NCBI RefSeq assembly: GCF_958299795.1
Contig: NC_133209.1
Span: 928,501 to 992,500, forward strand
Origin: Porites lutea
Taxonomy: Eukaryota > Cnidaria > Anthozoa > Scleractinia > Poritidae
DNA: 64,000 nucleotides
Direction: 5' to 3'
In this document: positions 2,371 through 61,362 of the stretch, piece after piece
Numbering within the stretch: position 1 is the first letter of the stretch
How the letters are laid out: the number at the start of each line of letters is the position of its first letter
The notes under the pieces: generated by a model
Told to the model about the DNA's origin: nothing
Databases searched by the model: none
Seen by the model: the letters and a program-made list of their open reading frames with translations, nothing else
Program-made: the position numbers and the translations under genes

Positions 2371-8737
<6,367 letters not shown>

Positions 8738-18545: not shown

Positions 18546-19748
18546 TCAAATCTTGACTTTGAAAACAACTGGCCTTGCAGCCTGTGAGGTACTCTGAGTC
18601 CTGGCACTCATGGTAGACTGGATGGGTGCTCTGTGATTTGCCCCTGCAGAGACACTACTTGGCAGCGGCTTGAGAGTTGATTTTGCCAGGGGTCGCAGAG
18701 GAGCAAGTGGAGCATATCTGGCAGGAGGAGGGGAATATAAAGATGCTGACGGTAATGTGTCTAACTTGCACTCCATGGGTTGGCCATCAAGTTTGCGGTT
18801 ATGATATCTCCTAATCGCCAACAGTGCATCATTTTTCTGTGCATACACTACTTCGGCACATCCCCTACCAAGCATTTTACAGCTCCTCAATCCACCCACT
18901 ACACCAAATAGTTCCTCAACATCTTGTTGAGTAACTGCTGGATGCAGATTGGATACTGTTACCCTTGTGCTTGATGAAGCTACTTCCTCTTTTCCAGGCA
19001 ATGAGGTTTTTCCGCTCTGTGAAGTGTTTGCCCGCAAACTATGATCCAAATTTCCTTCATAAACTCCGTCTCCAAAACTATCTCTGTGTAGCTGAGATAC
19101 ATTTGAGGCATAGATGACGCTCTCTTCAGCTATTTGACTATACAGTGCATGTTCGGCTTCTTTTTGCTTTCTTTTAGCATCTCTCTCTCGCTCTCTTTTA
19201 TAAGCTTCGTTTTGTCTCGCGCGTTTTCTCGTCTCGTGATCTTTTTCTTTCCGCTGTGCATCTTCGTTTTTCGCCGTAATGGTAAGAAATCCTGCAATCA
19301 CATTTGCCTGTCGATCCATGTCCTCTTTACGTCTCTCCACCTTTGCTGTAATGCGGATGGAATCTCCCATCATTGTGGCCATGCGATCAGGAGGTACCTC
19401 CTGTCGAGCAGTAACTTGAATATTACCACCAGCAGAAAGTGTCAGTGACCGATTTTGTTGGTGTAACTTTTGCCTTTGTTCCTTTCTACGCTCCTCAAGC
19501 AAAGAAATTGACCGTACAAGAGGCTTATTCTGGCTTTTCTTCGTGGCGATTTTTTGTCTTGCATCAACCATATTTCCTCCCTGCGTCTTTCTACTGTTTC
19601 TTGGACCTTGGTTCGTCACCCTACTTGTTTGAGATAGATTTGTCCGCAAATCTCTCGTTCTTTTCGGATTTTTTAACCCCCCAGTTCCTACGCCAACTTT
19701 TCTCCCACTCTGTAACGTTTTACCGTTTCGACTTTTCTTACTATACAT
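18546..19748 (-). CDS. POLDIP3: POLDIP3/SKAR-like RNA-binding protein, intronless
   Basis: A single uninterrupted frame encodes 400 aa. In vertebrates POLDIP3 (SKAR, PDIP46) binds the exon-junction/TREX machinery and S6 kinase and links splicing to mRNA export and translation. Seen here: a basic N-terminus with the family phrase VDARQKI at 61-67, a strongly charged Arg/Lys/Glu helix at about 136-200, one RRM at about 261-329 (RNP2 VTVSNL, RNP1-like GCAEVVYA, then NRKLDGQPMECKL), a Ser/Pro-rich tail, and a C-terminus FKVKI that parallels the vertebrate FKIKL. The RRM phrase SNLHPAVTQQDVEELF is close to the vertebrate one. Vertebrate POLDIP3 is multi-exon, so a coding region with no intron is notable. 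It lies head to head with the SH2 adaptor gene; the start codons are 317 bases apart. Confidence 0.88.
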   Translation of the reverse strand: MYSKKSRNGKTLQSGRKVGVGTGGLKNPKRTRDLRTNLSQTSRVTNQGPRNSRKTQGGNMVDARQKIATKKSQNKPLVRSISLLEERRKEQRQKLHQQNRSLTLSAGGNIQVTARQEVPPDRMATMMGDSIRITAKVERRKEDMDRQANVIAGFLTITAKNEDAQRKEKDHETRKRARQNEAYKRERERDAKRKQKEAEHALYSQIAEESVIYASNVSQLHRDSFGDGVYEGNLDHSLRANTSQSGKTSLPGKEEVASSSTRVTVSNLHPAVTQQDVEELFGVVGGLRSCKMLGRGCAEVVYAQKNDALLAIRRYHNRKLDGQPMECKLDTLPSASLYSPPPARYAPLAPLRPLAKSTLKPLPSSVSAGANHRAPIQSTMSARTQSTSQAARPVVFKVKI

Positions 19749-20065
19749 GTTGAAACTTGCGACTCCCCCACCGATACGTTGATATTTTGACGATTCTGTT
19801 CTTCAGAACACGAGAGAGGAAAACGCGCAGGGAATATAAAAGAAGTTTCTATTGGATAATTTTGACCAATAAAATGCTGTCTTACATGAGAGTCCTTTCG
19901 TTGTGCCCGCAAGCAAATTCCTAGCGGCTTTGTTAAGAGTGATAGCGTCATGTAAGCATGAAATTGTTTACGAATATGAAAGAGTCATAGGCTATTTCCA
20001 GTAACAAGAATGAAAGCTTCCTTTGATCTGTTTATTTTTCAACCAGTGCTTGCTGTAAGAGCATC
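19749..20065. promoter_or_regulatory. Head-to-head promoter region
   Basis: These 317 bases separate the start codons of two divergent genes (POLDIP3-like to the left, SH2 adaptor to the right) and must hold both 5' UTRs and promoters. No TATA box stands out. A GCGTCATG motif near 19945 is a weak CRE-like site. Shared control is inferred from spacing only. Confidence 0.45.
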
Positions 20066-23000
20066 ATGACGGATCTACTGACTCTACTGGCAAACAGAAC
20101 AAATACACATTGTCCTCCACTCACCACACCAACCGTCAAAGATGACGTGGTGGGATGCTCGTACACAAATTGGGCATACGCTGTGTTTGCAGCAGTTGCG
20201 TTAATTATTGCGGCAATACCATTTGTTGCCTTTATTTGCTACGTGCAGAGGCGAGTGAAGAATAAACATCGAGCAAGAGCTCTTGCACGCAGTACCAGTT
20301 ATGAGAGCTCTGGTGCATATCCATACCAGGTTGGTTTAATAACATTACAACCTTGTGTAGAGCACTTCCTGCATTGATTTTAAAGAGCAGTCGGTATTTA
20401 TGTTCAAGAAGAGATTCATCAGTGCTAGTTGCATCAAAAGTAAAAACCTCCAGCCCTTCTATAGCTTCTTGATTCCAAGGGGAAGTGGGGTGCTGTCAGC
20501 GGTACATCTTTGTGCCTGAGTTAAAAGATACAGCCCTTTCCTTAAAAAAATACCATAGTACTCTTAAAAGTTAAGCTTTTAGCCTTGTAGTCAGGAAAAG
20601 TCATGCTCCAGGTTTTCTTTTTAATTGACGGAAGCTAAATGGCCATTTAACAGCTCGCCGTAAATTTGCATAATTATTACAACAGGAGGGGAAAGAAGTG
20701 TTGTCAAGTGGCCAGTACATCAGACTCACAATCCTGGGGTCCCAAGTTCAAGTTCCACTTCAACCTGCTAGCTGGATTTCTTCTTGCTTATCCCAAGTTT
20801 AAAATCACTGTGCGACAAATGCAGACTGCAGACTGGCAGATAAACGAATTAAACATTGTTGTAGAATGCTCTAACAGATTCCCTAAACTAAACTTTTAAA
20901 TGACTTAAACTTTAGGGATAGGGACTCTGTTAAAGCATTCCACAACAAAGTTTTCCTCGTTTACCTGCCAGTCTACAAGTCTGCCAGTCTACAAGTCTGC
21001 AGTCTGCGTTTGTCGCACATCGGCTTAAAATGTCATGCTTGTCATGCTTGTAAATGGCCAACTGGTTGTCTCCTGTCAGTTTTGATTCTTTACCTTGTTA
21101 TTTTGACCAAAAGTTGATCTAGTCATGGATTAATCAACAGTTTATTTTACTCCACTTTGTCTCTCTTCACCCAGGTTTACAAATGGGTACTTGGGACATA
21201 CTGCTGGGGGGTAACCCTGTGATGGATTAGCATCCCGTCCAGGGGGGAGTAGCAATACTCCTAGCTATGCTTCATACTAAGGAAACTGGGATAAGCTCCA
21301 GCCATTTGTGCCTTTGGCTTGTATGCACCTTTACTTTACCTCACTTTACCTTTTTTTTTCAGCCTCTACATGGTGGTGGGCAAGGTAGACTTGCCAATTA
21401 TGGAGCTATAGACAGTGGTACAGAGGAGCGACAAGCTTTAAGATGTGAGTGACACGTAGTGAAGTGAATGCTGAGATTATCATATTTACAACATTTTTTT
21501 AGTTAAAGGAGTAAAACTGCTATTCACAAACAGTGTACGGTCAGATGCTGGTTACTAAAAACAGCCACAAGATTTAGTAATAGATAATTACAGGGCTTTC
21601 AATGAACATTAATATTATACTAGGCGATACCATATGGTGATACCAGAGCAAAAATCAGTGCTCAATTTTGGTGAGTTCAAAACTGAAATAATGTAATGAT
21701 AACATTTGAATGAGCCCCATAACTTTTCATTCAAGACATAGTGTCTCAGTAAATACTTAAAAGAAAATGCAAAGCATAATAATAATTAAGAAAACTATGC
21801 AATTTGTAGTGACAATAAGGTTTGTATGTGTGCCTTATGTAAAGAATACATGATCTATACACAGACAAAATGCCCTTTTTGTTTTAAAAGCCAATTTCTT
21901 TGCTTTGTATGTTTTTTTTGTTTTCAGCACCAAGCCATGCTTCCACAGCAAGTCTGAGTGACAGACAAAGCCATCAAAAGGACACTACAAGTGTGGCATC
22001 AAGTCGGGCAAGCATCATTCCCACCTACGATGATGTTTCTTTGAATCAGCGTAATGCAGCAGCAAATAAAGCTGAGAGGAATGGAGTTAATCAGTCTACT
22101 GGGCCACCACGGAGGTCATCAAGGTCATCACGCTTGTCACTTGATAGTCAGGAAAAATCTGTAGATCAGGGAGGACAGTTTTATGACTCTGTTGATGTCG
22201 TGACAAATATCCCAAAACCCCAGAAACAGGCTGGACCTAAAGATATGCCACCAGCTAAACCACCCAGGCTGCAAGTGCTGTACGATGCAAACTCTGGTAC
22301 ACCCGAAAATCATGTGTACGATGACGTGGAACAGTCTGAACTGGAAGGTAACAAACAACATAACACTCAGCCATCATTAACTGATACATCAGCAGTAGGT
22401 GGGCTCAGTGCCGAACATGAGGATGCTGAACAAGCTGACACTGATGATATTCTAGGAAATGATCATAATATGCACACTGAATCACCAGAGTATGCCACTT
22501 TGGAACCTTTACCAGACACATCACCTAATGATAGTTACCCTACTAATAATTACGCATCTAAAGGTGATCAAGAAAACCTATCAATAAGAGAACAGAAACA
22601 ATGTTTACTGTCAGATGATAAACAGCCAACCGCTGACACAGAGGGCAGCCCTGTTTTGCAAAACAAATATCTTACAGTGCTTCCTCCTACTCCACCCAAA
22701 CAGAATGGAAGTTTGGATGAAAATGCAGGCTTGCTTCAGTCCAATGAAGACTTTGATCAGATGAGTGTGAGTCCACCAGATAAATCAGTTGCCAAGTCAA
22801 GATCTGTAAGTTTGTCTTTTTTTTTACATTTATATTTACATGTGTTGGGTCGGTCAAATCATTAAGATATCACACCAACCGTAAAAATAAAAACAAAGAA
22901 ATAAATGAATAAAATACAGATATATCAAGATATAAAATAATGATATAAAAGTTACTATCATTTAAGAAAAGCTGATAACCTATATTTAAAAGTTTCTAAG

Positions 23001-26000
23001 GAGGCTGATGAAACAATGGCCCCACAGAGGCAATTCCAGTCCACTATAGTTTTTGGTAAAAACGAAAATTTAAAATGTCTTTATTTGCATATCGCACGCA
23101 AAATTTAAATTGATGGCTTCCCCTCGTGCGACTCTCAGAGTGTTAAATTAAATATTTTTTGGCTATCTATATCAATAAGACCATGAGTTACTTTATACGT
23201 AAGTGTTAACCTAGTCTGCCTTCTTCTCATTTCCAGCGTGGCCCACCCTAAGTCTTTAATCATGTCCGTAACACTAACATATCTATTATAATTCTGTGAG
23301 CAGAACCGTGCTGCTTTACCTTGAACCCATTCCAGGGCACTCATATCTTTCTTTAAAAATGGGTCCCAAGCTGCAGTTGCATAATCCAGCTTCAGTCATA
23401 TTAGGATTGTGTATGCACCTTCTTTCACATTCTTTGGACAATTCCAAAGGTTACATTGGTTGTGTTTAAAGAGTAAATCCCTCTGACCTTGTCTTATTCT
23501 TCACTTGACTTAACACTTATAGTCTGCGGGGTTGTCAAAATGCGCCGGCAACTCTCGCTATCACCGGCTACTTTAAGGTTTTTGCCGCCTGTAACCTGGG
23601 AAACACATATCCCTTCTGATATGCATTCCCCTACCTGGGAAACACATATCCCTAGTGAAATGTGTTCCCCCACCTAGGAAACACATATCCCTAGTGATAT
23701 GTGTTCTCCTACCTGGGAAACACATATACCTAGTGATAAGTGTTTCCCCACCCACAGGAAAAAATAACGGATTCCCATTTTTGGATATTTTTGGGTATTT
23801 AAAGAATACCCATAAAAATCCCAAATTTGGCAAAGTGAGACAAGTCCCAACCAGGGAATTCCCAACCAAGTTCCCAGATTGGGACTTGTCTCACTCTTCC
23901 AAATTTGGGATTTTTGTGGGTATTTTTTAAATACCCAAAAATGGGAACCCGTTATTTTTTCCTGTGACCTGGGAAACATATATCCCTAGTAATATGTGTT
24001 CCCCTACCTGGGAAACACATATCCCTAGTGATATGTGTTCCCCCACCTGGGAAACCCGCATCCCTAGCGATATGTGTTCCCCTACCTGGGAAACACATTT
24101 CCCTAGTGATAAGTGTTTCCCCACCTGGGAAACATGTATTCCTAGTAATATGTGTTCCCCTACCTGGGAAACACATATCCCTAGTGAGATGTGTTCCCCC
24201 ACCTGGGAAACACGTATCCCTAGTGATATGTGTTCCCCCACCTGGGAAACACATATCCCTAGTGATATGTGTTCCCCCACCTGGGAAACACGTATCCCTA
24301 GTGATATGTGTTCCCCCACCTGGAACACACCTATCCCTAGTGATACGTGTTCCCCCACCTGGGAAACACGTATCCTTAGTGATATGTGTTCCCCCACCTG
24401 GGAAACATGTATCCCTAGTGATATGTGTTTCCCCACCTGGAAAACACGTATCCCTAGTGATATGTGTTCCCCCACCTGGAAAACACGTATCCCTAGAGAT
24501 ATGTGTTCCCCTACCTGGGAAACACATATCCCTAGTGATATGTGTTCCCCCACCTGGGAAACCCGTATCCCTAGCGATATGTGTTCCCCTACCTGGGAAA
24601 CACATATCCCTAGTGATATGTGTTCCCCCACCTGGAACACACCTATCCCTAGTGATACGTGTTCCCCCACCTGGGAAACACGTATCCTTAGTGATATGTG
24701 TTCCCCCACCTGGGAAACATGTATCCCTAGTGATATGTGTTTCCCCACCTGGAAAACACGTATCCCTAGTGATATGTGTTCCCCCACCTGGGAAACACGT
24801 ATCCCTAGAGATATGTGTTCCCCTACCTGGGAAACACATATCCCTAGTGATATGTGTTCCCCCACCTGGGAAACCCGTATCCCTAGCGATATGTGTTCCC
24901 CTACCTGGGAAACACATATCCCTAGTGAGATGTGTTCCCCCACCTGGGAAACACGTATCCCTAATAATATGTGTTCCCCCACCTGGGAAACACGTATCCC
25001 TAGTGATATGTGTTCCCCCACCGGGGAAACACGTATCCCTACTAATATGTGTTCCCTTACCTGGGAAACACATATCCCTAGTGATATGTGTTCCCCCACC
25101 TGGGAAACACGTATATCCCTAGTGATATGTGTTTCCCTACCTGGGAAACACGTATCCCTAGTGATATATGTTTCCCTACCTGGGAAACACATATCCCTAG
25201 TGATAGGTGTTCCCCCACCTGGGAAACACGTATGCCTAGTGATATGTGTTCCCCCACCTGGGAAACACGTATCCCTAGTGATATGTGTTTCCCCACCTGG
25301 GAAACACGTATCCCTAGTGATATGTGTTCCCCTACCTGGGAAACATGTATCCCTAGTGATATGTGTTTCCCTACCTGGGTAACACATATTCCTAGTGATA
25401 TGTGTTCCCCCACCTGGAAAACACGTATCCCTAGTGATATGTGTTCCCCTACCTGGGAAACACATATCCTTAGTGATATGTGTTCCCCCACCTGGGAAAC
25501 ACGTATCCCTAGTGATATGTGTTCCCCCACCTGGGAAACACATATCCCCAGTGATATGTGTTCCCCCACCTGGGAAACACGTATCCCTAGTGATATGTGT
25601 TCCCCTTCCTGGGAAACACATATCCCTAGTGATATGTGTTCCCCCACCTGGGAAACACGTACCCCTAGTGATATATGTTCCCTTACCTGGTAAACACGTA
25701 TCCCTAGTGATATGTGTTCCCCCACCTGGGAAACACGTATCCCTAGTGATATGTGTTTCCCTACCTGGGACACACTTATCCTTAGTGATATGTGTTCCCT
25801 TCCTGGGAAACAGATATCCCTAGTGATATGTGTTCCCCCACCTGGGAAACACGTATGCCTAGTGATATGTGTTCCCCTACCTAGGAAATACATATCTCTG
25901 GTGATATGTGTTCCTGCACCTGGGAAACACCTATCTCTAGTGATATGTGTTCCCCTACCTGGGAAACACATATCCCTAGTGATATGTGTTCCCCCACTTG

Positions 26001-28433
26001 GGAAACACATATTCCTATCTGGGAAATACATATCCCCTACCGGCCCCGCCGGGAAACACATGCTGGTCACTTTCTCTTAATCTCCTACTACTTAAAATCG
26101 TTTTGACGACCTTGGTCTGATACGTTTATGAAAAGAGTAATATTTTTGTAGGAAGCCTTAAAGCTTAAAGTTTATACTTAGATATTAATGTCATACAACT
26201 GTTTGAGCTATCTGTAGGAAACAGCAAAAACCCCAACTTTCAAAGAAGGGGAGGAGGAGGGGTGTTAATCGCTTTCTTCTCTGAAGTTTCTTTATTTGAG
26301 GGCAGTGTCAGAACAATTTTGTCACTTATGGAAGTCACAACAGTTGAGCATAATAATATTATTATTATTATTATAATGCTTGTAGAGGACTAGCCCAAAG
26401 GGACTATACAGTTACATGTTTTCTAACTTTGAGTATGCAGAGCGAAAACATATATATAGTAGATTTGATTCTTATTTTAATTGCAGTATTTTGAAGAATT
26501 GTTACTTGGAAAAGTGAGGAACATGCCTGCAAATAAAAGGAATGGGACATTTCTTGTTCGAGATTCTGTTTCATCTGCTGGTTCAAAGGTGAGGTGCAAT
26601 TTACAGCAGTAATTTACTGAAATATATCAAAGCAAACAAACAAACAACAAAGGAGAACAATCTGTCGTGTGGAAGCAACTTCTCTGTGGATCTATCTTTA
26701 TGTTATTACTCGTAGTTCCTTTAAAGTAGAAAGCAGTGCATTAGTTATTTTTTGTGTGTTTTTTGCAGGTTCTGACTTTGTACTGCTGGAAACCAGACTC
26801 AAACAAAGAGCTCTATAACTTCAAGGTTAATAAATGGCATGATATTCATCTAGTTGGTCTAGTTTAGTTTTCTTTTAACTCTGAAACAAATACCAATTCA
26901 AGGAACATCCTTAATATAATGAATTGTTTCCTAGAGAGAGTGCGTGTTAAACTATGTTTACCGCTATTGGTACAGTGTATACTGTGTTGTATTCAGGATT
27001 GAAGACCCCATAGAATGGTAAACAAAAATTTAAGGGAAGAAAGGAGAGTTACATTCGTGCATTCAACTCTCTGTGACAAAAGGGTGGGACCAGCAATAGG
27101 GGTCCAAAGGGGTGTGTCTACCTTATAGAAAGTCAAATTAAATAACAAAAGATGGGAGCGACCAGCTCAGATGTCCTTTTTATAGACTAGGTGTCTATGA
27201 AGAAAGAGTTACCGGTATAGAGCGTGTTCATTCGTGTTGCTCAGTAGCAGCTGTGCAAATATATGGCAACAAAAGAAAGCGTTTACGTAAGAAAAGAGTC
27301 AAACTTCCATGGCACTGGTTTGGGACACCAACATCGCGCACATAATGTCATGTGAAAAGGCTCTATATAAGCTTTGTGGCTGTGTACTGCTGCTGTAAAG
27401 GGAAGGATTTCCAAAGAGTTTGATCATGGATAGATTGTAGAAGTCCGGCATATGAGACTGATCGGAAGAGTGTATCATTTGCTTGGAATCTGACCGTTGT
27501 TTCTGAGAGTTTGTTCTCTCTGTCTGGGTGAATTCAGAGTCGACAGGAAATTTTCAAATTTTATTCTCGGGATGGAAATGAATGCAGTTTCCAGTACAAT
27601 GGAAGTGTAAATTGCTGAAAGTCTAGCAGATTTGTGCGTCATTTTGTACGTTTTGGCTGCAATATGCCACATGTGAGAGAATGTAAAGATTGTTTGAATG
27701 GGTTCAGAGGTGGTAACACTTTACAATGTATTATTAATGACTTATAGCCCATTTTGATCGATTTAATGTTTTTGTTTTCAGGTTTCTTTAACAGAAGATG
27801 GAGAAATTTACCTTCATAAGAGTTCAAGAAAGTTTTCAGAATTAAGCGAACTTTTGGAATTTCTGAGGTGAGAACCAGTAATCCTTGTACAAATTAATTC
27901 AGTCAACTCTCTCACAGACGGACATCTGTAGGACCGGCACTTAATGTATCCGTCTTAGAAAGGTGTTTATCTTGTAGAGTGTTTGATGAAAGGAGTAAAG
28001 TAAGGCAGGCAACAACTCTAGGTGTCCGTTTTAGTCTCCGTTTTAGAGGTGTCAGTTAAGAGGGCGTTGACTTTAATTTTTTCGGTGTGATTCGCTGGAA
28101 GTGAGAGTGAACTTACGATTTTGCTAAACTTTCCGTATTGCACCCTAACTTGTTAAAACAGTCCATGAGAACAAAACGATTTAGTTTCGGACGAGTTTCC
28201 TTCCGAGTGACTTGATCTTTATACACCAAAGAGTATTTATAACTTAAATAAAGCCCTACTCTTTAAATTTAAACTCAGAAAAGACAACTTCTACATTACT
28301 TTTTGAGACTTTAAGGTTAAAATGCACTCCTAGTTTAAAATCTGATCAACACTTTTTTCGTCTTTTTATTTTTTATTTTAGGAAAGACAAAGATATGCTT
28401 CCTTGTGTCTTAACAACTCAGGTCTTCCAATAA
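20066..28433 (+). CDS. Single-pass membrane adaptor with tyrosine motifs and C-terminal SH2 domain, seven exons
   Basis: Exons: 20066-20329, 21363-21444, 21928-22805, 26487-26588, 26769-26825, 27782-27867, 28382-28433; 1521 nt, 506 aa, all phases closed. No signal peptide; a roughly 35-residue N-terminus with one NRT glycosylation site precedes a membrane helix at 36-60 and a basic stop-transfer segment (QRRVKNKHRARALAR). The long tail has YxxI/V/L sites at Y101 (YGAI), Y149 (YDDV), Y201 (YDSV), Y246 (YDDV), Y304 (YATL) and Y363 (YLTV), and an SH3-ligand motif PPAKPPR at 223-229. Residues about 409-506 form an SH2 domain: GTFLVRDS with the phosphate-binding Arg433, then LYNFKV, GEIYLHKSSRKF and ELLEFLRKD. 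The first helix of the SH2 looks short. Layout resembles LAT/PAG-type adaptors, but those lack an SH2. I know no named family with this order, so no symbol is given. Function as a kinase-dependent membrane scaffold is inferred. Confidence 0.88.
20690..21345 (+). repeat. SINE-like element split by a MITE
   Basis: A tRNA-like head (CATCAGACTCACAATCCTG, then CCAAGTTCAAGTTCC as a degenerate B box) lies at about 20700-20765. A body with GTGATGGATTAGCATCCCGT and GGAAACTGGGATAAGCTCC lies at about 21170-21290; this resembles a module found in many animal SINEs. The fold-back MITE at 20810-21018 interrupts the two parts. Whether both parts belong to one SINE is inferred. Confidence 0.4.
20810..21018. 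mobile_element. Fold-back MITE, copy 2 (family of 3241-3441)
   Basis: Ends GTGCGACAAATGCAGACTGC and GCAGTCTGCGTTTGTCGCAC are inverted repeats, and the inner GACTGGCAGATAAACGAA pairs with the right arm through CTGCCAGTCTAC. The interior matches the copy in the LDH intron. It lies in intron 1 of the SH2 adaptor. Confidence 0.75.
23125..23480 (-). mobile_element. LINE fragment, C-terminal part of the reverse-transcriptase ORF
   Basis: On the minus strand the translation reads NCPKNVKEGAYTILI, then an in-frame stop, then LKLDYATAAWDPF and LEWVQGKAARF, SVTDMIKDLGWATLE. This is the thumb region after the RT domain in CR1/jockey-like non-LTR elements, where the usual phrase is RPKLEYA..AWDP. It is a 5'-truncated dead copy in intron 3 of the SH2 adaptor. 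Confidence 0.75.
23595..26062. repeat. Minisatellite of about 60 hairpin-forming 39-bp units
   Basis: The unit runs CCTGGGAAACACATATCC followed by CTAGTGATATGTGTTCCCC and a short C-rich joint, 39 bases in all. Within each unit GGGAAACACATATC pairs with GATATGTGTTCCC across the loop CCTAGT, so every unit can fold into a hairpin with about 13 base pairs. The units vary at a few positions (ACA/ACG, CCCC/CTCC). Because 39 is divisible by three and the unit has no stop in several frames, long artificial open frames run through both strands. The array is within intron 3 of the SH2 adaptor and is interrupted once, at 23753-23966. Confidence 0.92.
23753..23966. mobile_element. 214-bp fold-back element inside the minisatellite
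   Basis: CACAGGAAAAAATAACGG on the left pairs with CCGTTATTTTTTCCTGTG on the right, and the arms stay complementary inward for about 90 bases (including AATTTGG and GTGAGACAAGTCCCAA). The loop is about 35 bases. It sits between the first few 39-bp units and the rest of the array. Confidence 0.75.
26352..26376. repeat. ATT microsatellite
   Basis: A short run of ATT/TAA triplets about 110 bases upstream of exon 4 of the SH2 adaptor. Confidence 0.6.
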
Positions 28434-34400: not shown

Positions 34401-35136
34401 CCGATGAGATAACTATGATATGAACATAATCAAACTGAGCATAAAGTTGGGTCCAGCTTAGAATTTCTAGGCAATTCTTTTTTTATTAGACCGAGCTATA
34501 ACTGCTCGTTCCAAAGAGTCGATGTTATGCTAGGACGCTTTCCTAACTGAAAGTTTATGGCGGCAAGTCAAAGCTCAAAAACTTTTGAAATTACCGCTCG
34601 AAAGCGTTTGCTTGAATCCGTCTCAAAATCAGGCACAAATTGAACGTTTATCTTAAGACTCCTAGCTGGCGTTGTAAACGATAATTGACCGTTCAAGAAA
34701 CTTATATCACATTTTATCCAGAGACAAGAACCGCTCTTCAGAGTCGAAACCCCGGGTGGATTAATTCTTATGATGAGCTATACGGGGAGGTTCCGCTTGA
34801 AAAGAGTACCAAGTTTTTTGAGGGTTATGGAACGATATGGATTCCATGAGTCGAAGTATATGAAAGGGTAGGGAAATTTGTCATTTCGTTATTTAAAAAG
34901 GCTTTTAATCACCAGAATAAACACATCTTATGGCTGTGGAAATGACAAGGAAAGTTCCTGTCCTCCTGATTTATTCACATTAAAAATACGCATCAGATAC
35001 AGCACTTACATACAGAATTCTTTCAAATTTATTTACTGGATATGTTTGATTAGTTAAAGGATATGTTTGCTTCATCTTTGTAGATCACAACTAGTACTGA
35101 CTTTCCTCTTAACCGTCAGAAACGGCCAAGTCCATC
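28434..35136. other. Gene-free stretch between the SH2 adaptor and the GPCR
   Basis: About 6.7 kb in which I find no exon with family similarity. It holds the 3' UTR of the SH2 adaptor, T-rich and CT-rich low-complexity patches (28960-29005, 33635-33670), a fragment with the TIR phrase AGCCTGCGTAGCAGGCGG near 31110 that recurs at 59143, and the MITE at 31602-31976. Open frames of 60-105 codons near 30763, 31307 and 32304 have no recognisable domain. Confidence 0.4.
31602..31976. mobile_element. MITE with GTCTTAGGCCA ends
   Basis: The left end GTCTTAGGCCATCCCCCC followed by a T-tract and CGCTTAGCGTCG pairs with the right end CGACGCTAAACGGAG followed by GGGGTGGCCTTAGAC. The phrase TTGGGTCGGT occurs near both ends in the same orientation. 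Length is about 375 bp, with no coding capacity. Confidence 0.6.
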
Positions 35137-36099
35137 ATGGTTGCCCAGAGTGTCACGTGGCTTGTCCTTTACAGCTGCCTTGCTGTGTTTACCATCATCG
35201 GCAATTCACTCTCTATAGCAGTGTTTCTTAAGAACTCAAGACTACGACGCATGCGCACGAGCATGCTACTTATCAACCTAGCAGTTGCTGACCTGCTCGT
35301 GGGCGCGGTTGCTGTCCCAATGTACATGGTGTTTCAATGGCCTCAAAGCAAACTAGCGCAATCCCCAAGCTTCCACATAAGTTACGACGCTATTGATATA
35401 CTTACTGGCTTTGCTTCGCTGTTTGGCTTGTCAGTAATAGGACTGGAGCGTGCTTTTTCAGTATTTTGGCCTCACAGGCACAGAACCGCGGGAAAACTAC
35501 CATATTTCGCAGCTGTTGTCTTGTGCTGGCTCCTTTCATCTCTGCAAGTCCTACTGCGCGTTCTAACACAAAAAAACATCGTGGAATTCAGGATTTTCTT
35601 CTACAACATGATGATCGCGCTTTCCCTCGTTCTTGTTGTAATGCTCTCTACTTATACCGCAGTCTGGTATAAAGTGCGGGCTCGTCAAAACGAGCTTCGC
35701 AAGCGAAGTAAGCGGAGGTATATTCGAGAATCAGTTGAAAGAGAGCGGAAACTTATTCTAACATTAGCAATAGTTACAGGTGTTTTTTTGATAACTTGGC
35801 TTCCTTTTCACGTTCTCAACATCTTCGTGTTTTTTGGCATAAAGTGTCGACCAAACAAACTCTCGGTTTTCCTGAATCTAATACGCGCAGTCAAACTTCT
35901 TCATTACAGTAATTCGTTCATGAATCTTATCATCTACAGCTTTAGGTTCCCTGACTTTCGGCGAACTCTTTGTTGTTTTTTTGGAAGGAACTTGCGAGTG
36001 CACCCAGTACAATCAAACGTAATTGGAGCGATGAGTTCGCTGAACACGAACAATCAAAGTCCTTTGGAAACGGAAGGAGCAAGTAAGGTTTTTCAATGA
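35137..36099 (+). CDS. Intronless rhodopsin-family (class A) G-protein-coupled receptor
   Basis: A single exon encodes 320 aa with seven hydrophobic segments. Class A marks: GNS with Asn23 (1.50), LAVADLL with Asp52 (2.50), ITWLPFH at 219-225 (TM6 CWxP-like), and NLIIY at 263-267 in place of NPxxY. The DRY box is ERA at 104-106. I see no Cys at the top of TM3 and none in the short second extracellular loop, so the usual disulphide appears absent. That combination is known in the melanocortin/EDG/cannabinoid/adenosine (MECA) group, which has large cnidarian expansions. The N-terminus is very short and has no glycosylation site. The third intracellular loop is basic (KRSKRRYIRESVERER). The ligand cannot be told. 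The first ATG is used; it lies directly before TM1. Confidence 0.92.
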   Translation: MVAQSVTWLVLYSCLAVFTIIGNSLSIAVFLKNSRLRRMRTSMLLINLAVADLLVGAVAVPMYMVFQWPQSKLAQSPSFHISYDAIDILTGFASLFGLSVIGLERAFSVFWPHRHRTAGKLPYFAAVVLCWLLSSLQVLLRVLTQKNIVEFRIFFYNMMIALSLVLVVMLSTYTAVWYKVRARQNELRKRSKRRYIRESVERERKLILTLAIVTGVFLITWLPFHVLNIFVFFGIKCRPNKLSVFLNLIRAVKLLHYSNSFMNLIIYSFRFPDFRRTLCCFFGRNLRVHPVQSNVIGAMSSLNTNNQSPLETEGASKVFQ

Positions 36100-41684: not shown

Positions 41685-44600
41685 ATGTCTCTTCTAGAAA
41701 GAGTTAGTCACTTCTTTGACAAATACAGGCAAAACGATGGAAAAGGAGAGCATATTTTAAAGTTATTAAGACAGAACATTTCCTCCTCTTTTAAGAAGTC
41801 TTCTATAGGTAAGTGAACGTAACTAATTGAGCTTAAAATTGCCCGGTGTTTTTAAGCACCGGTCATCATCACATGTTCATAGCATGCATAATACGACTTT
41901 CGTCTAACGTTTTTAACTTTACATTTTTTGGTTATTGCAGTGAAGTATACGAAGTATCAAGAAGTTCCGGAAGATGAATTCAGTGGTTGGTTGAGCCTGC
42001 TCTTTGAGGAACATGGTTTAGAGCGGTTAACGACAGAGCAAACAGAAGATATTAGACAGCAATTCTGTGTTTGCTTGGTCAGTAGTGCGAGAAATTTCGA
42101 GTTCTTAAGCTTTAGAGCTAAGTTTGTCAAGATCGCTGTATATTAGCCAAGTTCCCTTTTGGCTGTTTTTCGTCTCGGTCCATAGAAAAACTTAAAACAG
42201 AACGAGGCCAAAGTGCAGCCATCTTGAACGAACAAGCTTGGTTAATTTTGCATATCTCAAACGTTATCTCTTAGGTAAGCGCACAAAAATTACGCCAGTA
42301 CAAACAACCTCTCACAAGCCTTTGATGATAATTTGCATTTATATACTTTGAGTACGTACAAAATACATGCTAGCAAATTAAATCAATCGTGTAGGCAATA
42401 CACTGTTGACATATTCTCACAAAATTATTTACCCTGTTGATACACATAACCTCTTTGACATTTTGAAGTGCAAACATTAATATTATCTTCCTCTATTAAT
42501 TAGAAAGGTACAAATTTATTTTTAGTCTTGTGGAGTGTTGTAGGGTTCTGTATACATATGGGTCTTAAAAATATTTACGGTATACAGTATATATCTTTGC
42601 TTCCCATTGAAGAAAGTTTGTTTAATATTATACTCCCCCCCCCCCCCCCCACCATCAACTCTCAGTAGTCCTGTTTTCTCAAGAACATACATTCTCCAGT
42701 TAGCTTCTTTACACTCACATGACACAGGGTTGTCAGGATGTTTTGAAGTAGACGGCTGAGTTGTCAAAGTAAGCGGCCAGTCCAGGGATGTTTTTTAAAA
42801 AAAATGCCATCCATAAAGAAATGCTAAGCTAACCTGAGATCAGGCTCTATTTTCGTTTCGCTTTGAAAATTACATTTCGGCGGGCAAGGCGAAACCAATT
42901 TCAGCGGTGGCCATTAGAGAGAATGTATGAGAACCGCTCAAATTGGGCCTGATCTCAGGTTAATTCTAAGCAGAGTAGATGGCCGATACTAACCAAGTTG
43001 GCAGCGATTTTCACCGGCAGCCAGCTACTTTTGACATCCCTGATGACACCTGCCAGTGAAACTGTTTCCTTGCCAGTAGTCTGTGAGTGATATCAGAGGA
43101 AAACATTTCACTATTTGCTTCTAGCAAAACATTGTCCTCTTCTTTGTTTTAATCCATTTAATTATTTGCAGGTGTGATTAAGGTGTCAATAGTGTGTTTA
43201 CATTATACTGTTAATTTGTTTCAGAAAAGAATTGAGGAGAGTTCTTGTGTAGCCTTGTGGGAATATTGGTTAAGACCAGTGAGTATAAAGCTGTTTTTCA
43301 TAGTGTTATAAACTGCACTTCAATTTATAAACTAAGGAACAGGAAAGGATTGTCCCCTCAGACTAAAACATGAGATCTCCACTATGGTGATAACTGCATT
43401 AACCCCTGCACTTCAAAGTGATTTGTTGCTATTTGTCAAAGTATATGAGAAGCTTTTTAATTCATTATTGCAACACTTCATTGTGAATTACATTGCATAC
43501 CTATACACTGTACACTGTGAAAGGTTTGAACTCAGGAGTTATTTCAAAAGTAGGTTGAGTTTGATCGTCTGGGTGAGCGTAGTCCTGAATAGGACTGTTG
43601 TTGTTGACAGTGACTGATGTTTTGGCAACCTGTGCGATAGTCATTTTCAGAGTCAAAGTGAGTTGTATTCAATGATTCAACTCATTTTGACTCTGAAGAT
43701 GACTACCACACAGGTTGTCGAAACGTCAGTCACTGTCAACAACAACAGTCCTATTGAGGACTACGCTCACCCGGACGATCAAACTCAACCTACTTTTGAA
43801 CACTGTACACTATTATCATGATGCATTATGATTTATTATTTGCATACACAAACAATAAAAAAATAGTGGCATAAACCTATAGAGCCATGTAAATGTAACA
43901 AACTGTGGAATTACTGATCAAAGAATTGTCAAATGAATGGTGATAAACAGTCAAAAAAAAAGAATTAGGAAAATACATGTATGGGAGAACTCTTCCTTCA
44001 CTGCTCACAATGGTTCTATGGGCATAGACTTTGTGTTCGTCCTTTGTAGGTTCTCAACCCTATATCAGCTCTGCTTATTGTTGATGTACAAAATGACTTC
44101 ATTAGTGGGTCTCTTGCCTTAAAAAACTGCCCTGCTGGTGAAGATGGTGAAGAAGTTGTATCAGTCATACAAGAGCTGCTGTCAAAAAAGATGTTTAGTG
44201 TTGTCGCCTACTCTTTTGATTGGCATCCATCAGATCATTGCTCCTTTGTTGACAATGTGTCCTTGTACCCGCTGCATTCCTCTAGTCAAGTGACAGCTGA
44301 GAAAGCCAAGGTCTTCGATGTTGTGGTTTATGACAAAATCCCCATCATTGATCAAGTGTTGTGGCCTAGGCACTGTGTAATGAACAGCTGGGGTGCTGAA
44401 CTTCACAAAGATCTCACAGTAAGAAAAATAAAACTATTGGTGACCTAGATGTACCTAATCGAATGGCCTTCAGGGGCTAGTACATATTTATCTTAAGTGG
44501 GGGCCTAAGTTTGTTACCCTTTTTGAAAGAAAGAAGTTTTTTTAGTGAGGATGCTTTCCAAAAGTCAAAACTTGGTGGCCATACAGTTCATTTAGAAAAA

Positions 44601-47263
44601 TGAAATAGGCATTGTTAAGAGTTTTCTCTTAAAAACCCATCAACCCTTTGGAATTATTTGATCTGGCAGAACAGTTTTGATAAAAAGTGAAATTCTCATT
44701 AAAATAGGAACAGATAATTTGGCTGGCCCGCGGTTCTGACAAATGGAAAGTGCTCTTAGTTAATTTGGAGTAGCTACTGAGAGCTTTGACTAGAGCTCTG
44801 ATAAGCAACTTCATGCCCTTTAGGCAGACTGATTTTCGTACATTCAATCCTCTACTAGCCTGCAGTGCAGGTGTTTTCTTTGGGCGCACAAATGTTTTTA
44901 CTATTTCTACTCTCCCCAGTCTTCCACTGTCATAAAATCAAAGATGACGGCTACAATAATATGAACACGAACAAGGTTTCGCCCACACAAAATACACCTG
45001 CACTGCAGGCTAATCCTCTACTTAGAACAGCCACCATTCCACAATGGCTCTCTTCTTGTTGTCCTGGTCTACCAATTTTTAGGCTTTAAACTCTAAAGAG
45101 TGTGGTTTTATGGTGGTTTAAATAACTGAAAAAAATACAAAAAGTATCAATGGAAAAAGTTTCTGGACAGCGCACCTTGCCATCCAGCATTTTTTTCCAT
45201 TTAAACCCTTACAATTTTGTGAGCAATGAAATCTCCCTTTTAAGTCGCTGGTATTTTCTAAGTTGTGTTGGTGTTTTATTGCATAACCATAACAACCAGT
45301 CTTCTCTACAATGACTGCCTACTTTTGTCCCTGAAGGTGGCCATTGTGCAAGTCAGGTTCTGCCGTACTGAGTTAATTTTTTATCTATCCCAGCTAGTCA
45401 TCCTAAAGGTGCCATGGTATTCAGGAGCATAGCGTCCATATATGCACACCGCCTATGCGTACAGCTAAAATCTGGACAAAAGATACCTTTTATTTCCTAA
45501 AAGCATTTTTATCGTTAAATTGCAATGACTGATAACTTTTTCAAGTTATATTGGTGTCTTTACCCATCTGAAGGGTAGACTTCTCGCCCTTGAAACCTCC
45601 TTGATGGCATCACTGTTTTACCCACTGATAGCACAAGAGATAAGAGATAGGTAAAATAAACAACTAAATACGGCACTTTACTTCGTATTTTTTTTGCTAA
45701 AAATGTCCATTTCAGAGACCCTAAATTTAAACATTTTCTGGGGGAGCATGCCCCCAAGCCCCCTAGTTTGAGCCACCTTCAGCCCCCTTATATTTTCTTT
45801 CCTCACATACACCTTCAAACTCTCAGGCAATGCCCCTGGCCATGGCATACAAAGCTCCCCAAAAATAGTTTACTGATATAAGAATCTTTTATAGCCTCCT
45901 TCAGATAAGGACATCACAGTCAAAAAGGGAAAAAATCCTGAAGTGGACTGTTACTCAGCATTTTGGAATAACGGCGACTGTACACAAACATCTTTATTTG
46001 TTGACCTTTTAAAACGTGGAGTGACAGATCTTTATGTGTGTGGATTGGCTTTTGATGTGTGTGTGAAAGAAACATCCATAGATGCTGTTGGACAAGGCTT
46101 CAAGACTCATGTCATTGTGGATGCTTGTAGGGGTGTTGCACCTGAAGGAATTGCAAAAACAAAAGAAGAATTTGTAAAGAATGGAATAGTTTTACTAGAA
46201 TCGGAGAAGGTAAGGGAAATTCAAAACTTTTCTTGTGTGTGTGTTGATACACCCAATGAGTGCACTAAAGGATTGATAAGATAATTAGCCTTGTCATGTG
46301 GTCTCTCAGGAGGCAAGCAGATGATAGAAGCGTCCCCTTCAAGCAGTCATGGTCCACTATTGTATTGTTTATTGTAAACAACAAATTAATTTAAAACTTG
46401 TTATGTATGTGATCATAATTGTTTGCTTGAACGATAACAACTGGAGATATCCTTAAATGTTATAAGTAGTGGTGCCAAACTTGTTCCTTATAATTTTTTG
46501 CTTGATATCCAACAATATTGGTGGCTTTCTGATGATCAAATTACATTGATTTTATCCCATCAATCCTTACATGCGTAGAAAGGTGAAGGGTATCCTGATA
46601 AGGTAGACCTATAATTTTGGTTTATAGCTCTTATGGTGTTCGTCACTACATTATTTTCTGCTCTAGAATAACAAAAATTGAATGAAGGGATTAGGGACCT
46701 CTTTTCATCTGGCCTAGTCAGTTTAGTGTTATTGTTTTTTGGGGGGGAGGAAAATGCTTTTCCTGTTTAGGGTCCTTTAGAGTTGTCACTAAGATTTCAA
46801 GGTGCCAGTTATAAGAAGTTCCTTTGGTTTATTTCGTCTTTGTCTCAGATGATTGAATTACAGTGTGACCACTCCGACTGGGGCACTTGGAAGGAGATTA
46901 TCCAATCACAACATTCTCAAATTTTTTTGGCAAATGGACCAATAAAATTCAAGGTTCAACTATGCAACCATTGAAAACTTTAAACTGTTTGAACTTACCT
47001 GACCTCTCAGGAAAGAGCACTCAAATTCATGAATGCTATTGGTCTATTTGCAAAAAACCTTAAGAATCTTTTGTTTTCAAAAAACGTTGTGATTGGATAA
47101 TCTTCTTCCAAGTGCCCTGTTTCGAGAAGTGGCACTGTAAAAGTAAATATATTATAACAAAAATAATAATCTGCCAGCGACCTTAATTTTGTTGTTGTTC
47201 TTGTTTATACTTTTCCTACCACAGGTGAAAGATGCATTGAGAGATAAGAAAGAAATAATGTGA
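41685..47263 (+). CDS. Naam: Nicotinamidase (isochorismatase family), six exons
   Basis: Exons: 41685-41808, 41941-42077, 43225-43278, 44050-44418, 45910-46209, 47225-47263; 1023 nt, 340 aa. The enzyme hydrolyses nicotinamide to nicotinic acid in the NAD salvage route. Key residues: Asp117 (IVDVQNDF), Lys234 (VKKG) and Cys279 (AFDVCVKET) form the expected triad; Asp162, His164 (DWHPSDH) and His213 (WPRHCV) are the metal ligands. HKDLT and KNPEVD..YSAFWNN follow the insect Naam sequence closely. Residues 1-105 match the place of the N-terminal EF-hand-like region of Drosophila Naam but with no clear calcium loop. Exon 5 must begin at the second AG (45908-45909), because the first (45903-45904) would break the frame. 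Introns carry several MITEs. Vertebrates lack this enzyme. Confidence 0.93.
42830..42962. mobile_element. MITE with TAACCTGAGATCAGGC ends
   Basis: Left end TAACCTGAGATCAGGC and right end GCCTGATCTCAGGTTA are perfect inverted repeats of 16 bases around a 101-base core. The right half (GAGAGAATGTATGAGAACCG and onward) recurs as a partial copy at about 58083-58140. It lies in intron 2 of the nicotinamidase gene. Confidence 0.75.
43543..43800. mobile_element. Long near-perfect fold-back MITE, 258 bp
   Basis: TTCAAAAGTAGGTTGAGTTT on the left pairs with its complement on the right, and pairing continues for about 120 bases per arm through GTAGTCCT, GTTGTTGTTGACAGTGACTG and AGTCAAAGTGAGTTG. The loop is about 13 bases. 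It lies in intron 3 of the nicotinamidase gene. Confidence 0.85.
44548..44756. mobile_element. MITE with AAAAGTCA..TTCTGAC ends, copy 2
   Basis: Left end AGGATGCTTTCCAAAAGTCA and right end TTCTGACAAATGGAAAGTGC are inverted repeats, and the interior resembles the copy at 36160-36380. It lies in intron 4 of the nicotinamidase gene. Confidence 0.6.
44858..45012. mobile_element. MITE with TAGCCTGCAGTGCAGG ends
   Basis: TAGCCTGCAGTGCAGGTGTT on the left pairs with ACACCTGCACTGCAGGCTA on the right, and inner GGGCG/CGCCC also pair. A similar TIR pattern (AGCCTGCGTAGCAGGCGG) occurs near 31110 and at 59143-59230. Confidence 0.65.
46858..47141. mobile_element. MITE with TTACAGTG ends and long inverted arms
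   Basis: TTACAGTGTGACCACT and GGGCACTTGGAAGGAGATTA on the left pair with TAATCTTCTTCCAAGTGCCC and AGTGGCACTGTAA on the right. The arms pair with gaps over more than 100 bases. It lies about 80 bases before the last exon of the nicotinamidase gene. Confidence 0.7.
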
Positions 47264-48390: not shown

Positions 48391-57712
<9,322 letters not shown>

Positions 57713-57740
57713 TTTGCTCCTCATTGAGTCGTTTCCAGTG

Positions 57741-58257
57741 CCCGCGCTATCAGGGCGCCCCTCGATTAAGCGCCGGGGCGCTTATTTAATTTTCCCTGCC
57801 TAATAGGAGCGGCGCTTATTTCAACTTTCGGTAAAACAATGAGGGGAATACAGAGACAATTAAGTGAGGCGCGCACTCAGTACACAATTTAGTAAAAAAA
57901 TATGCACACCTCGTTTACTACAATAGAACTTTAGAACTCACGAGTTGGTCGAGTCGAGGTCTCATTTCTCAAGCGATGGGCAAGTACTTCATGGCTGACT
58001 GTCGCGTATATGGCATTCAGCCATGAAGTACTTGCCAAGTGATGTCAAGCGCCGTAACAAAGGTGGCGCCTTAGTTTGTTAGCGGTAGCCGTTAGAGAGA
58101 ATGTATGAGAACCGCTCAAATTGGGCCTGATCTCAGGTTAGTTAATATTCAAATTAGCACCGCGGCGCTTAATCGAGAGCGACTCTTATTAAATTATTTT
58201 TGGTAAAAAGGCAGCGCTTATTCGAGAGCGGCGTTTAATCGATCATTTACGGTAATC
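57741..58257. mobile_element. DNA element with TCGATTAAGCGCC ends, carrying nested repeats
   Basis: CTCGATTAAGCGCC and GGCGCTTATTTAAT on the left correspond in inverted order to GCGCTTATTCGAGAGC and GGCGTTTAATCGATC on the right. Inside it are the hairpin GGCAAGTACTTCATGGCTGA with its complement (57979-58036) and a partial copy of the CCTGAGATCAGG family (58083-58140). It lies just upstream of the polymerase mu start. Confidence 0.5.
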
Positions 58258-61021: not shown

Positions 61022-61362
61022 AGTGTCGCTCATATCTATGGAGCAGAAAACAAGTGGTTCATGTACGAGGAAAAGAGTCGGGTGAGGCGATGTTAAGGCA
61101 TTTGGTCCCGCAAGGGAGTATTATTGGACCGCTGTTCTTTATCCTAATCATTAACGATTTGCCCTTACATGTTAGTGCAGATATAGATCTTTACGCAGAT
61201 GATGCGACTTTGTCGGCTTCAGCAGATGTGAAAAACTTGGCCCATCTAGACCTGTCACTAAATAAATCTGTCAGAGAAATTCAAGCCTGGGCCAGCGCTA
61301 ACAAACTGCCTATAACTCCAGAAAATGTAGGTTCTTACTCGCGGGTTTTTACTGTACTATAA

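Follow-up and report, generated by a model that had tools for sequence, protein, structure and literature searches.

Does the interval 20066-28433 (+) of the window (the whole 64-kb stretch of DNA that was analysed) encode a single protein that is anchored in the membrane, offers tyrosines for phosphorylation and also carries an SH2 domain? From the predicted gene model it appears that it does: one gene would give a membrane-anchored scaffold with phosphorylatable tyrosines and an SH2 domain of its own. The reading that we favour, with a probability of roughly 0.6, is that of a single-pass membrane docking protein with a cytoplasmic C-terminus, whose front resembles LAT and whose back resembles SLP-76/BLNK.

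Gene model, membrane helix and tyrosine tail

The gene has seven exons on the plus strand, with GT donors, AG acceptors preceded by pyrimidine tracts, and intron phases of 0, 1, 0, 0, 0 and 2. They form one continuous frame of 506 codons plus a stop, in agreement with the preliminary description of the locus, which had proposed seven exons and a 506-aa product. In the predicted protein a short N-terminus leads into one strong membrane helix, which is followed by a tyrosine-rich tail of 348 aa and, at the C-terminus, an SH2 domain. Exon 1 (20066-20329, +) provides the start codon, the short N-terminus, the helix and a basic stretch, as seen from its open reading frame and hydropathy. Exon 2 (21363-21444, +) is delimited by its AG/GT sites, the model frame being the only stop-free one of the three forward frames, and exon 3 (21928-22805, +), stop-free in frame and marked by its codon preference, holds the tyrosine- and proline-containing tail. 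The SH2 domain is spread over the last four exons, all on the plus strand: Pfam and PDB alignments identify the alpha-A helix, the AB loop and beta-B with FLVR in exon 4 (26487-26588), beta-C and beta-D (YNFK) in exon 5 (26769-26825), and beta-E/F and alpha-B in exon 6 (27782-27867), while the PDB alignment to GRB10 places the C-terminal strand (LPCVLT) and the stop in exon 7 (28382-28433).

Codon preference, trained on three other genes of the same window, gave the full model +97 bits in frame, compared to +31 and +1 for its two alternative frames, nearly all of the signal coming from exons 1 to 3. Exon 3 alone scored +65.5 bits and has no stop in frame, whereas its alternative frames are broken by 10 and 39 stops. 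Exons 1-3 are clearly coding. Codon preference is weak in the SH2 exons (+8.6 bits), and SH2 homology in both Pfam and PDB alignments runs across junctions 4/5, 5/6 and 6/7, which supports these three splices. At the other end, the gene is well bounded: an in-frame stop at 20024 lies 42 bases 5' of the start codon, and about 320 bases separate this start codon from where a divergent open reading frame (18546-19802, -) has its first ATG. This divergent frame encodes an RRM protein (PF00076, E = 2.2e-9), which we take to be POLDIP3-like; it and the adaptor gene are arranged head to head and probably share a promoter region.

The N-terminus of about 35 residues has no domains and contains one sequon, N10-R-T, in exon 1. 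It is followed by the membrane helix (residues 36-58; 20171-20239, +), where mean hydropathy peaks at 2.87 over residues 40-58. All windows above 1.6 belong to one block, with starts at residues 33-46, as expected from the one helix already described. Seven basic residues lie directly C-terminal to it. C58 is the single cysteine of the helix region, and the whole protein lacks CxxC. A Pfam match of the helix to the ATP-synthase I chain (E = 0.038, below the cut-off) was dismissed, and a search of exons 1-3 against the PDB gave no match.

Seven of the 12 tail tyrosines lie in YxxI/L/V sites, compared to 1.6 expected in shuffled sequences (P = 2e-4). Six of them had been listed before and were found again (Y101, Y149, Y201, Y246, Y304 and Y363); Y87QPL is a seventh. 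Three follow the pattern YD[DS]V, namely Y149-DDV (22026-22037, +), Y201-DSV (22182-22193, +) and Y246-DDV (22317-22328, +). For the broader class Y[DE][DESTN][ILVP], 0.14 sites are expected in shuffles (P = 3e-4, a generous value given that the class was picked after the sites were seen). The SH3-ligand motif mentioned in the preliminary description is present as PPAKPPR, a class II-like sequence at residues 223-229 (22248-22268, +), and is accompanied by a second SH3-ligand-like motif, PPTPPK, near residue 368. No YxN (GRB2 sites) occurs in the predicted protein, so that nothing points to the GRB2-type docking known from LAT. As judged from their residues, the three YDxV sites would fit an NCK-type or a Src-type (group I) SH2 domain, possibly the protein's own.

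The SH2 domain and its candidate ligands

The C-terminal SH2 domain with an intact FLVR arginine was recovered by domain search: residues 424-487 match PF00017 with E = 7.9e-8 (32.7 bits vs a cut-off of 21), although the match starts only at profile position 18. FLVR occupies residues 430-433, and its arginine, R433, is encoded at 26559-26561 in exon 4. The best sequence matches in the PDB were GRB10 (29.4 bits), HCK (27.4) and ABL2 (26.5), scores of such similar strength that we assign the domain to no family. The SH2 domains of SLP-76/BLNK were not among the best 60 PDB matches. In the phmmer alignment to HCK, F460 takes the beta-D5 position and K461 beta-D6. The AB loop has about six extra residues, and the canonical Trp motif of the first strand, W-x-x-G-x-I, is absent exactly at the join of exons 3 and 4.

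That an SH2 fold would be predicted, as had been anticipated, was borne out in part. A single-sequence AlphaFold (AF2) model shows helix, strands, helix and strand in SH2 order, and all 50 of the 50 Foldseek matches listed for it bear an SH2 domain; the model is nevertheless weak (mean pLDDT 57.9) and shows no first SH2 strand, and the Foldseek E-values, from 0.008 to 0.12, make these matches supporting evidence only. No second SH2 copy was found by tblastn elsewhere in the 64-kb window. No relatives were returned when the SH2 domain was searched against GTDB genomes and phages, or when it and the tail were searched against viral contigs, which for an animal gene is uninformative.

In the docking protein that we propose, the tail tyrosines would become phosphorylated once a receptor nearby or a Src/Syk-type kinase is active. 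SH2 proteins of group I or of the NCK type would then dock on the phosphorylated YDxV sites, and SH3 proteins on the proline motifs. For the protein's own SH2 domain, the phosphotyrosine partner would be a receptor, another copy alongside or the tail of the same chain, and this contact would hold or cluster the scaffold at the membrane. SH2 domains with a Src-family-like Phe at beta-D5 usually prefer polar-polar-hydrophobic sites, and in Songyang's classes this Phe reportedly predicts a preference for motifs of the YDxV type. From F460 and the type of motif in the tail we infer that the SH2 domain and the YDxV sites may suit each other, the residue at beta-D5 being one that defines SH2 classes (PMC7337045).

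Who would read these sites is a separate matter. The preliminary description had suggested that the protein, once phosphorylated, could cross-link itself or its neighbours. This is possible and gains some support from the Phe at beta-D5 and the three YD[DS]V sites, but the SH2 domain of NCK is recruited through the YDxV motif too (PMC3507883), and NCK is an equally good candidate reader. The protein could be a platform on which NCK-type adaptors dock, with an SH2 domain that serves only to target it to an activated receptor and does not bind the protein's tail. With three motifs of the NCK-recruiting type (PMC3507883), SH3 ligands at hand and no YxN sites for GRB2, this is a serious possibility, if short of even odds; what speaks against it is that F460 should give the protein's own SH2 domain a taste for the same kind of motif. 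The platform is a sub-case of the docking protein that we favour rather than its competitor. That the tail is a real ligand of the protein's own SH2 domain we propose only tentatively.

The proposed join between exons 3 and 4

The docking protein exists as one chain only if exon 3, ending at 22805, is spliced to exon 4, starting at 26487. This is the weak link of the model, yet one that on the sequence signals around it we consider probable. The predicted intron 3 (22806-26486, +) is 3.68 kb long and consists mostly of tandem repeats, a 39-bp minisatellite at 23594-23752 and 23967-26017 whose main block (23967-26017) has about 53 copies of the unit. Since the length of its unit is divisible by three, the minisatellite keeps several frames open over long stretches, and this is not evidence of coding. 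In the same intron, 23138-23395 (-) looks by eye like a C-terminal fragment of a LINE reverse transcriptase; Pfam gave no support.

Two products could have been joined wrongly here. Exons 1-3 would then form a plain LAT/LAX-like transmembrane adaptor ending in intron 3, and exons 4-7 would belong to another transcript or be spliced to an exon that we did not recognise. The long, repeat-filled intron would suit such a case. Reading through from exon 3, moreover, leads to a stop at 22863 and then to three AATAAA at 22886-22908, which makes a shorter isoform without the SH2 domain possible, and the loss of the first-strand motif precisely at the junction counts against the join. The signals at the junction itself argue the other way. 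The donor of exon 3 (TCT/GTAAGT) conforms to the consensus, the acceptor (TTTTAATTGCAG) is good, and both sides of the intron are in phase 0. An in-frame stop at 26478, 9 bases 5' of exon 4, with neither a start codon nor an open frame ahead, means that exon 4 needs an upstream exon; a limited scan of intron 3 revealed no other partner exon and no candidate micro-exon for the missing SH2 strand. Lastly, R407, the next-to-last codon of exon 3 and six residues N-terminal to the LLL of alpha-A, presumably sits at the alpha-A2 position of Src (by-eye alignment to the Src sequence), so that exon 3 would contribute to the domain encoded by the exons that follow. On these grounds we favour the join and regard two separate products as unlikely.

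Some features would suggest a degenerate SH2 domain, a structural or phosphorylation-independent module that no longer binds phosphotyrosine: the canonical first strand is absent, the AB loop is enlarged and the model is weak in its N-terminal half, but the FLVR arginine R433 and the beta-D6 lysine K461 are retained, as probably is the alpha-A2 arginine R407, and homology runs to the last strand, which leaves this explanation improbable.

Relation to known adaptors

A membrane docking protein with its own SH2 domain recalls two kinds of adaptors. What defines transmembrane adaptors is a short ectodomain, a single helix and a long tail with several tyrosine motifs (PMC2803307). In the predicted protein we find the short ectodomain, the one helix and the tyrosine tail of these TRAPs (LAT, LIME, LAX, NTAL, PAG, SIT and TRIM). 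TRAPs, however, are not known to carry an SH2 domain or any other recognisable domain besides the helix and the motifs. Because of its C-terminal SH2 domain we therefore call the protein TRAP-like and do not file it as a TRAP. It also lacks the juxtamembrane CxxC palmitoylation motif of LAT, LIME, NTAL and PAG, as do LAX, SIT and TRIM, which are without palmitoylation sites (PMC2803307). LAT has GRB2-type YxN docking, which is not found here.

In SLP-76, BLNK and CLNK, tyrosine sites, a proline motif and a C-terminal SH2 domain follow each other in the same order as in the predicted protein. These adaptors are cytosolic and have other N-termini (SAM in SLP-76), whereas the predicted protein has a strong membrane helix at residues 36-58. 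The proteins that gave the best SH2 sequence matches (GRB7/10/14, the Src family and ABL) do not span the membrane either. An intracellular SH2 domain in a membrane protein is seen in a protocadherin-TM-SH2 protein of Choanoeca perplexa (PMC6040629). The likeness ends at the N-terminus, which there has a protocadherin domain and here is a domain-free stretch of about 35 residues. Given this precedent, an SH2 domain in a membrane protein is a category already known, and what would be new is the present combination. In the literature on transmembrane SH2 adaptors and on cnidarian adaptors we found no direct precedent, and it is plausible that the order helix, tyrosines, SH2 has no named family.

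In lymphocytes, the roles of LAT (membrane tyrosine scaffold) and SLP-76 (SH2 reader with tyrosines of its own) sit on separate proteins, which in vertebrate T-cell-receptor signalling are joined by a third adaptor, Gads. The locus could represent an early-animal adaptor family that unites both roles and polymerises through contacts between its own SH2 domain and pYDxV sites, with no bridging adaptor, although we find this a rather doubtful extension of the docking protein. If true, a single protein with both halves would be an alternative way to build phosphotyrosine clusters at the membrane, and would make it easy to test whether one SH2 domain and several matching sites carried by a single chain are enough for clustering. 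Should orthologs be widespread in early animals, they would bear on the origin of such adaptor systems.

Other features were recorded along the window. A lactate/malate dehydrogenase exon (PF02866) lies at 5082-5468 (-). Downstream of the adaptor gene, one open frame at 35113-36096 (+) encodes a rhodopsin-family GPCR (PF00001, E = 7.4e-26), and 44050-46281 (+) holds an isochorismatase-domain gene of at least two exons, presumably nicotinamidase-like. Possible exons at 53862-57781 (-), which we assume to be DNA polymerase mu/TdT-like, include an HHH_8 match at 53862-54116 (E = 4e-4, below the cut-off), and a reverse transcriptase fragment (PF00078) is found at 61024-61359 (+).
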